NCBI RefSeq assembly: GCF_004365175.1
Contig: NZ_SOCE01000001.1
Coordinates: 1,165,154-1,229,153, forward strand
Origin: Kribbella voronezhensis
GTDB taxonomy: Bacteria > Actinomycetota > Actinomycetes > Propionibacteriales > Kribbellaceae
Direction of reading: 5' to 3'
Length of the DNA: 64,000 nucleotides
Shown: in pieces, positions 8,779-12,336 of the stretch
Numbering within the stretch: position 1 is the first letter of the stretch
Layout of the letters: each line of letters opens with the position of its first letter
Translations under genes and position numbers: made by a program
Notes under the pieces: generated by a model
Database searches by the model: none
What the model saw: only the letters and a program-made list of their open reading frames with translations
Told to the model about the DNA's origin: nothing

Positions 8779-11268
<2,490 letters not shown>

Positions 11269-11327
11269 CGTCGTACTCCTGCGTCTTGAGATGTCATGGG
11301 AACCCTGCCAGAAAGTGCTGATAAATG

Positions 11328-11351
11328 AAAAAACCCCTCACACAGGAGGGG
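11328..11351 (-). terminator. Intrinsic terminator (attenuator) in the leuS leader
   Basis: On the minus strand CCCCTC pairs with GAGGGG around a 6-nt loop and is followed directly by six T residues (11333-11328). It sits between the leader peptide (11396-11422) and the leuS start (11268), so it ends transcription before leuS unless read through. Confidence 0.88.
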
Positions 11352-11354
11352 ACG

Positions 11355-11395
11355 CCGTACTGACCGGCGCAGAAGGCGCCTGATTGCCAGTACGG
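11355..11395 (-). promoter_or_regulatory. Stem-loop between leader peptide and attenuator
   Basis: CCGTACTG (11395-11388 on the minus strand) pairs perfectly with CAGTACGG (11362-11355), and an inner stem pairs GGCGC with GCGCC. The 5' arm begins directly after the leader-peptide stop codon, so a ribosome sitting at that stop would cover it. It ends 3 nt before the terminator stem and does not overlap it, so how it affects termination is not obvious. Confidence 0.7.
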
Positions 11396-11422
11396 CTAGC
11401 TAAGGAGCAGGGTCACTCGCAT
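11396..11422 (-). CDS. Leucine leader peptide MRVTLLLS
   Basis: An 8-codon reading frame ATG-CGA-GTG-ACC-CTG-CTC-CTT-AGC-TAG with three consecutive leucine codons, placed about 130 bp upstream of leuS on the same strand and followed by a stem-loop and an intrinsic terminator. This is the layout of ribosome-mediated attenuation: slow decoding of Leu codons when charged tRNA-Leu is scarce would change downstream RNA folding. There is no SD; a -10-like TAATCT ends 6 nt before the ATG, so the peptide is probably translated from a leaderless transcript. Confidence 0.8.
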   Translation of the reverse strand: MRVTLLLS

Positions 11423-11428
11423 ACGCCC

Positions 11429-11434
11429 AGATTA
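11429..11434 (-). promoter_or_regulatory. Candidate -10 element of the leuS leader promoter
   Basis: TAATCT on the minus strand, 6 nt before the leader-peptide ATG, which would put the transcription start at or next to that ATG. No good -35 element is visible at the expected spacing. The box lies just outside the 3' end of the upstream AraC-type gene. Confidence 0.5.
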
Positions 11435-11439
11435 GCGCA

Positions 11440-12336
11440 TCAGACGAACGACGTCCCCCCGGTACGGCGGAACTCGCCAGGCGTCCGGCCGTAGTGACGT
11501 TTGAAAGCGGTGGAGAACGGCCGTACGTCGGAGTACCCGCAGGCGCGCGCCACGTGGGTGACAGTGAGGGTGTGGTCCAGCAACAGCTGTGCTGCGAGCT
11601 CCAGGCGCATCCGGCGCAGCGTGGACATCAGGGAGGCTCCCGTGACCGTCTGGAAGAGCCGCTCCGCGTGCCGCTCGGACAGGTGCACGGCTGCCGCGAC
11701 CTCTCGTACGGTCACCGGTCGGGCCAGGTTGTCGAGCAGATGCCGCTGCATTGCCTCCACCACCACTGGACCGCGGTCGCGCACTATCGGCTCTACTGAG
11801 AGGTCCTGGTCGAGCGCGAAGGCTCTGGCGGTGTCGAGCACCAGAGCAGCGCCGAAGGCCGCCAGCGATTCGCTGTAGCCGGAGCGTGGCGACGCAGCCT
11901 CACCGGCCAGAGCCGCGACGACCGCAGGTAGTCCACCGACGGCTGTGGACACCACCGGCCCGTCCGGTCGAGTCAGTCCCGACCACCAGCCGTTCCCCGG
12001 CGTACCGGACATCGCCCGGAAGGTGAAGCCCCAGAAGGCGATGCCCAGCGGCGACGACCGGCTCGACTCGATCTCGTGGACGTCACCCGGCCGCGCCAGG
12101 AACACGTCCCCCTCGCCGACCGCGTACTCGGCTTGACCGGAGTTGAAGCGCCCCTCGCCGGCGTACGCCAGGCAGACCTCGTGGAACGAGTGGCTGTGCC
12201 AGTAGTTGCGCCAGTACTCCGGCCGGTAGTGCCCCCAGCTCACGAAGTCGGCCCGGAAGCCGCCGACCTCGCAGGACTCCAGCAGTCCCGCGAGGTCCAC
12301 GAACCGGTCCGCTGTCGCGACAGCCGCCAGACTCAA
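11440..12336 (-). CDS. AraC family transcriptional regulator
   Basis: A 298-residue regulator: N-terminal cupin-like sensor (HSHSFHEVCLAYAGEGRF and EGDVFLARPGDVHEIE, typical AraC_binding) and a C-terminal double HTH (about 195-292) with VREVAAAVHLSERHAERLFQ and the second-helix signature CGYSDVRPFSTAFKRHYGRTPGEFR. The start overlaps the stop of the PhyH gene by 4 bp (ATGA), so the two form an operon. It probably controls that dioxygenase and perhaps the neighbouring symporter in response to a small carbon source. The ligand is unknown. Confidence 0.93.
   Translation of the reverse strand: MSLAAVATADRFVDLAGLLESCEVGGFRADFVSWGHYRPEYWRNYWHSHSFHEVCLAYAGEGRFNSGQAEYAVGEGDVFLARPGDVHEIESSRSSPLGIAFWGFTFRAMSGTPGNGWWSGLTRPDGPVVSTAVGGLPAVVAALAGEAASPRSGYSESLAAFGAALVLDTARAFALDQDLSVEPIVRDRGPVVVEAMQRHLLDNLARPVTVREVAAAVHLSERHAERLFQTVTGASLMSTLRRMRLELAAQLLLDHTLTVTHVARACGYSDVRPFSTAFKRHYGRTPGEFRRTGGTSFV

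Follow-up and report, generated by a model that had tools for sequence, protein, structure and literature searches.

The leader upstream of leuS in Kribbella voronezhensis is probably a leucine-sensing, ribosome-mediated transcription attenuator, a reading drawn from its sequence and from comparison with relatives. Leucine-responsive attenuation of leuS appears likely on these grounds, and the element would probably let the cell make more leucyl-tRNA synthetase when leucine is short. The locus is another instance of a leuS leader already proposed in Streptomyces, and the notion that such a leader governs the synthetase dates from 2005, when it was put forward for Streptomyces leuS (PMC1262725). 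A regulator proposed for two Streptomyces is present in about half of the sampled genomes of the class, has no Rfam match and keeps a constant geometry. Its class-wide range, the preference for CTT described below, the constancy of the spacings and the absence of a mutually exclusive antiterminator were not found in the literature covered, whose scope ended short of subscription journals. The leader also poses a problem: its best-kept features are the distances from a rare Leu codon to a first hairpin and from that hairpin to the terminator, yet no base-paired antiterminator was found. This raises the question of ribosome-mediated attenuation through neighbouring, non-overlapping hairpins.

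All parts of the element lie on the minus strand of the window (the whole 64-kb stretch of DNA analysed). The leader ORF, MRVTLLLS followed by a stop, has 8 codons (11422-11396, with ATG at 11422-11420 and TAG at 11398-11396) and is probably leaderless, judging from its sequence and from the conservation of the leader. The -10 element of its promoter, TAATCT (11429-11434), ends 6 nt before the ATG, and a TANNNT/C box is also found in the 89 leaders compared below. The three Leu codons (11402-11410), namely CTG (11410-11408), CTC (11407-11405) and CTT (11404-11402), are putatively regulatory on sequence and comparison. The first hairpin, stem1 (11354-11396), starts at the last base of the leader stop codon (11396) and has, by folding and alignment, a conserved 9-bp base (GCCGTACTG/CAGTACGGC). 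A 2-nt gap, GT (11352-11353), leads to an intrinsic terminator (11328-11351) seen by terminator scan, folding and alignment, which consists of CCCCTC-CTGTGT-GAGGGG (11351-11334) and six T residues (11333-11328). Downstream, the Shine-Dalgarno sequence AGGAG (11276-11280) stands 7 nt before the GTG start (11268) of leuS (8779-11268), whose 829-aa product is a leucyl-tRNA synthetase by NCBIfam TIGR00396 (leuS_bact; 935.8 bits against a cut-off of 548.4), with 98% identity to K. monticola over its first 66 residues. A preliminary description of this DNA had listed the eight-codon frame with its three Leu codons, a stem-loop right after the stop, and a six-T terminator ahead of leuS, and all of these are confirmed. 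It had also held that the two hairpins do not overlap, and in the fold at the locus they indeed share no bases.

The terminator is the sole terminator-like site between 10800 and 11800 (mean of 0.2 in shuffles), and the 101-nt segment 11328-11428 has a folding energy of -44.5 kcal/mol (z -2.64). When we scanned for a -10 box, a 5-8 nt spacer and an ORF of at most 15 codons containing LLL, the leuS leader was the single case in the 64-kb window; 60 Markov-1 random windows that kept the dinucleotide make-up gave 0.03 cases per window and none with a terminator. A sigma-70 promoter scan of 10800-11800 found none, which at the leader is explained by the scan also requiring a -35 element. No Rfam family matched anywhere in the window at its gathering score, a T-box RNA upstream of leuS included, and the single match within 11200-11500 was at chance level (13.9 bits against a gathering score of 45). 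The stop codon of a gene for an AraC-type regulator (11440-12336, minus strand; assigned from profile matches below their cut-offs) lies 17 nt before the leader start, which puts the leuS promoter at or inside the 3' end of that gene. By eye, comparable gene ends precede several Kribbella leaders.

The distance from the -10 box to the start codon is 6 nt in 76 and 7 nt in 13 of 89 leaders, and 99% of 121 leaders have a pyrimidine at -1. The constant spacing and the -1 pyrimidine both fit a transcript whose first nucleotide is that of the start codon. No conserved -35 element was found across the 121 leaders. In S. lividans, leuL2 is reported as leaderless by RNA-seq in the relevant part of its reannotation (PMC8079986). 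The earlier suggestion that the peptide is probably leaderless gains support from all three observations (spacing, pyrimidine and RNA-seq).

A DNA search over the leader matched all 37 genomes of the genus (its own included) and 46 of 58 genomes overall. A strict pattern, which demanded a -10 box 4-9 nt before the start codon, found a leader in 116 of 126 loci (L002-L127), 89 of them distinct. Of the 10 loci without such a leader, L043 lacks upstream DNA and three (L063, L064 and L078) hold the decayed leaders described below. On inspection, L006 and L111 (from one organism), L050 and L052 carry variant leaders that failed the strict pattern, and L036 and L040 have no leader of the leuS type. 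The Kribbella peptide, MRVxLLLx, is shorter than the commonest one in other families, MR-x-LLL-S-x-PR. A leader of the Kribbella type also occurs in L004, a record named Streptomyces sp. SID13031 that is probably misnamed. In an alignment of 41 leaders, with 9 pairs in stem1 and 6 in the terminator, 98.4% of cells were paired, compared with 42.8-53.8% when the same alignment was slid out of register. Both sides had changed in 37 cells (10.5 in shuffles); 35 of these fall in stem1, at 4 of its 9 pairs, while the terminator varies little and the four basal pairs of stem1 are near-invariant. Sequence and comparison thus establish the parts of the leader, their conservation and constant spacings, and the pairing of stem1.

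A covariance model of the leader (R1) extended this range. Because R1 includes the window's own sequence, its score on the window is not independent evidence; matches in families outside its building set are. In the Kribbella genome there was one match (1.3e-17; the next was 0.24). Across the class, R1 matched 195 of 394 genomes at E 0.001, spread over 82 of 138 genera, and missed 199 genomes under strict filters, and in the phylum it matched 28 of 296 genomes at E 0.01. Class-wide matches gave 41 loci; seven incomplete ones were excluded, and leuS motifs lay downstream in all 34 complete loci checked, which are among the best-scoring R1 matches, in keeping with the preliminary assignment of the element to leuS. 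Two of the 34 duplicate earlier leaders, and the other 32 together with the 89 make up the 121 leaders used here; loci from other classes (L143-L156) stand outside these counts. With its Leu-codon leader, hairpin, terminator and shared covariance model, the Kribbella locus is of the actinobacterial leuS leader type. In many leaders a short stretch recurs just past the T tract, for example GTTTCC in L132, L133 and L135-L137 and GTGCCC in L163, L164, L169 and L170; no role was found for this stretch after the terminator.

Three leaders upstream of leuS appear, by eye, to have decayed (L063 of Microbispora; L064 and L078 of Planotetraspora). They have ACG, CCG or TCG where the Leu frame should start, 4 nt past the -10 box, and the T tract is gone too. 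Such paired loss of the leader start and the T tract, though it stands for no more than one or two events, is consistent with the two working together.

Conservation of the Leu codons in relatives had been named beforehand as a check on the preliminary description, and it held: LLL is present in 80 and LL in 87 of the 89 distinct leaders, and LLL in 111 of 121 once the class-wide loci are added. The third Leu codon is CTT in 78 of 80 cases (109 of 111 with the class-wide loci), and CTT makes up 1 of 197 Leu codons in four genes of the window. Nine of the 10 leaders without LLL (of 121) still have CTT as the last Leu codon, L031 ending with CTG instead, and in L142 CTT is the sole Leu codon. 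The end of the Leu run is 5 nt from stem1 in 73 of 78 leaders (105 of 109 with the class-wide loci). In 72 of 89 leaders, 2 nt separate stem1 from the terminator, and we take the gap statistic from this strict count only: looser patterns (3 nt in 92 and 1 nt in 26 of 118) miscount part of the GT gap or the first C, and a second looser tally has the same fault (n = 121; 2 nt in 78, 0 nt in 26, 1 nt in 10, 3 nt in 4, 4 nt in 1, none in 2). The stop codon varies in position, lying most often at -2, +7, +13 or +16 relative to the first base of stem1. With the distance from Leu run to stem1 fixed and the stop variable, what is held constant is the distance of a stalled ribosome to stem1, rather than that of a finishing one.

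A simple isoacceptor explanation for the choice of CTT in the last position is unlikely from the typed tRNAs: the genome gave 51 tRNA hits, of which 44 could be typed, with Leu anticodons CAG, GAG, TAG and TAA and no AAG among them, and the 7 untyped hits, at 72-74 nt, are too small to be typical of Leu. A single tRNA probably decodes both CTC and CTT, so the preference must reflect something beyond tRNA identity, which might be, for example, slower wobble decoding of CTT. Codon bias in attenuators has long been discussed, with the rare CUA of leu and selective charging among the cases treated in PMC1183508. A frameshift reading of the CTT-spacer-stem layout was dropped, as inspection found no conserved slippery site.

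The position of the ribosome decides, in folding calculations, whether stem1 forms. We placed the ribosome edge 12 nt past the first base of the A-site codon at four positions in 109 of the 121 leaders (ten of them of the Streptomyces MRAVRLLLS type), in an equilibrium calculation only. The mean stem1 probability was 0.98, 0.81, 0.26 and 0.00 with the first, second or third Leu codon or the stop in the A site, whereas the mean terminator probability stayed at 0.97-0.98 in all four states. An earlier set of folds (87 of 89 leaders) was similar, with a terminator probability below 0.5 in 5 unoccupied leaders. The ribosome-sensitive part of the leader is, by this calculation, stem1. No base-paired antiterminator was found in the 109 leaders at the four ribosome positions. 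In transcripts ending before the 3' arm of the terminator, the mean antiterminator probability was 0.01-0.24 and exceeded 0.5 in at most 9 of 109 leaders; before this arm emerges, the 5' arm pairs upstream with a probability of 0.24 with the ribosome at the stop and 0.03 at the first Leu codon. Since an antiterminator that shares bases with the terminator is absent, we do not file the leader as a classical attenuator, in agreement with the preliminary view that the switch is not the classic exclusive pair. It does have a Leu-codon ORF, an intrinsic terminator before the gene, and a structure (stem1) whose formation is calculated to depend on ribosome position.

That the terminator is predicted to form in every ribosome state would also suit an attenuator of constant strength, in which the terminator stops the same proportion of transcripts at all times and the peptide, though made, senses nothing useful. 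In S. coelicolor, mutation of the candidate codons of an ilvB leader had no effect, as related in the passage of PMC1262725 on that gene. Against this, different families share the run of Leu codons, the rare CTT and the 5-nt spacing to stem1 although they differ in the remainder of the peptide, and we consider a constant attenuator improbable.

The leucine-sensing attenuator that we prefer would work as follows. Transcription would begin with the A of the leader start codon, giving a leaderless end on which a ribosome initiates. With ample Leu-tRNA it would pass the three Leu codons, reach the stop and melt stem1, and RNA polymerase would then halt at the terminator, short of leuS. A scarcity of charged Leu-tRNA would hold the ribosome within the Leu run, above all at the rare CTT ending 5 nt before stem1; stem1 would stay folded behind the polymerase, and more polymerases would enter leuS. 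In this scheme we infer the exact start site, leucine shortage as the signal, and the rise in read-through. Stem1 might weaken the terminator without competing for its bases, through crowding at the RNA exit or through a pause. Folded stem1 is taken to reduce termination because the logic of a synthetase demands more enzyme in shortage; the direction of its effect is a guess, and we favor this sign over the opposite one at moderate odds. Against the mechanism count the terminator, which does not change across ribosome states and so leaves out the defining part of a classical attenuator, the loci without a leader (L036 and L040), and the genomes missed by R1.

The same attenuator could work with the opposite sign, which is possible and distinctly less probable. 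Stem1 would then aid termination, either by pausing the polymerase or by forming a two-hairpin stop signal with the terminator: when leucine is plentiful, the ribosome would finish and leave, allowing both stem1 and the terminator to form, and in shortage a ribosome at CTT would cover the invariant first bases of stem1 and termination would fail. A ribosome stalled at CTT, given the 12-nt footprint, already leaves stem1 partly open (the 0.26 above), which suits this sign at least equally; a rare CTT at the edge of stem1, together with partial opening at that very stall, argues for it. So do the constancy of CTT among the Leu codons, including its place as the last one in leaders lacking LLL, the near-invariant basal pairs, and the greater upstream pairing of the terminator 5' arm when stem1 is open. 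However, a ribosome at the stop codon likewise keeps stem1 open, so that release would have to be fast relative to transcription, and the terminator hairpin is predicted to be stable by itself.

Control could instead act on translation of leuS, if the Leu codons or neighbouring leader bases paired with the ribosome-binding region of leuS, in the manner proposed for the leuA LEU element. Between the terminator and the Shine-Dalgarno sequence, Kribbella loci carry a block complementary to leader codons 3-5 (11302-11308 on the minus strand in the window, and the like place elsewhere): ACCCTGC in the leader matches GCAGGGT, and TGAGCCT matches AGGCTCA. The two main Kribbella forms covary, with a mean longest perfect helix of 7.0 and 6.8 for own partners and 4.7 and 5.0 for swapped ones, and in the Nocardioides/Actinopolymorpha group own pairs have an advantage of 1.3 kcal/mol over swapped ones (-17.6 against -16.4). 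However, duplex energies were no better than in dinucleotide shuffles (mean z -0.24 for 35 Kribbella leaders, -0.28 for 34 of the Nocardioides/Actinopolymorpha group and +0.22 for 20 of the Streptosporangiaceae group), own and swapped pairs were close in Kribbella (-16.6 and -16.1) and equal in the Streptosporangiaceae group (both -14.6), the GTGAACCTG leaders (n = 2) gained nothing from their own region over others (5.0), and the independent changes are few and come from one genus. On the same shuffles, LEU-type pairing of the Leu codons with the Shine-Dalgarno region finds no support in the leuS leaders. Long-range pairing between leader codons and the leuS start region, attractive by eye, was therefore set aside on the shuffles, with a hint remaining within Kribbella, and translation control is very unlikely.

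Returning to attenuation, R1 also points beyond the class and beyond leuS. By motif, it matches before leuS in other parts of the phylum (L138, L143). Weaker matches outside the class lie before leuA (L144, L148 and L154, over the NCBIfam cut-off) and before an acetolactate synthase gene of the ilvB type (L146 and L155 by best NCBIfam hit on partial genes; L145, L150 and L151 by eye), with E-values for these other-class matches of 5.8e-7 to 0.009. The ilvB-type leaders have LVLI or VLLI codons before the stop (CTC GTA CTT ATT in L145, L146 and L155) and a small ORF downstream (107 aa in L150). By eye, the gap from stem1 to terminator is 2 nt in L144, L145, L146, L148 and L151, 3 nt in L155 and longer in L150. 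The leuA and ilvB-type matches outside the class are leads rather than counts, and other matches of that set (L153, for instance) resemble chance. When CTT occupies the A site, the first pair of stem1 stands 11 nt from the start of the P-site codon, about where the ribosomal helicase sits. A speculative form of the preferred mechanism, to which we give a slim chance, is an attenuator that needs no antiterminator: stem1 would act by position rather than by pairing and, when folded, bring the stalled ribosome up to the polymerase at the T tract, crowding out the terminator hairpin at the RNA exit. The same ruler would then be common to the leuS leaders of the class and perhaps to leuA and ilvB leaders elsewhere in the phylum.

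Enterobacterial leu, his and trp leader peptides start with a Shine-Dalgarno site. Like the leuS leader, their attenuators carry successive codons for the amino acid they sense, among them rare or selectively charged ones (CUA in leu); unlike it, they have exclusive hairpins, as outlined in parts of PMC1183508 and PMC11805395. The ilvB1 attenuator of Mycobacterium tuberculosis shares a branched-chain amino acid uORF, an intrinsic terminator and ribosome footprint logic, but it serves another gene, has a proposed exclusive antiterminator and is not described as leaderless in the sections of its report available to us (PMC13236596). The LEU element of leuA operons likewise has a Leu-codon leader in Actinobacteria; pairing of the Leu codons with the Shine-Dalgarno sequence and a pseudoknot are proposed there, and the portion of the source that presents it describes no terminator (PMC1262725). 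Elsewhere, leuS is mentioned as a neighbour of trpP (PMC11995493), whereas in PMC9413887 and PMC3896937 a search for leuS finds just the author name Leustek; PMC1262725 and PMC8079986 are the two papers found to describe leuS leaders.

Closest are the Streptomyces leaders. Seliverstov et al. (2005) predicted leuS attenuators in Streptomyces avermitilis and S. coelicolor with a Leu-codon leader peptide, a hairpin and a terminator before leuS, and their text, as far as available, describes classical antiterminator and terminator hairpins, whereas we found no exclusive pair in 109 leaders (PMC1262725). The 2021 reannotation of S. lividans TK24 includes, in the part concerned, leuL2 (MRAVRLLLSEPR), which is leaderless and has three Leu codons, with a hairpin and U stretch before leuS (PMC8079986); the same peptide, MRAVRLLLSEPR, occurs in the model matches L132-L136, L139, L140, L185 and L186. 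The Kribbella peptide, at 8 codons, is shorter than leuL2, and its stop ends where stem1 begins, whereas the leuL2 stop lies deeper in the 5' arm.
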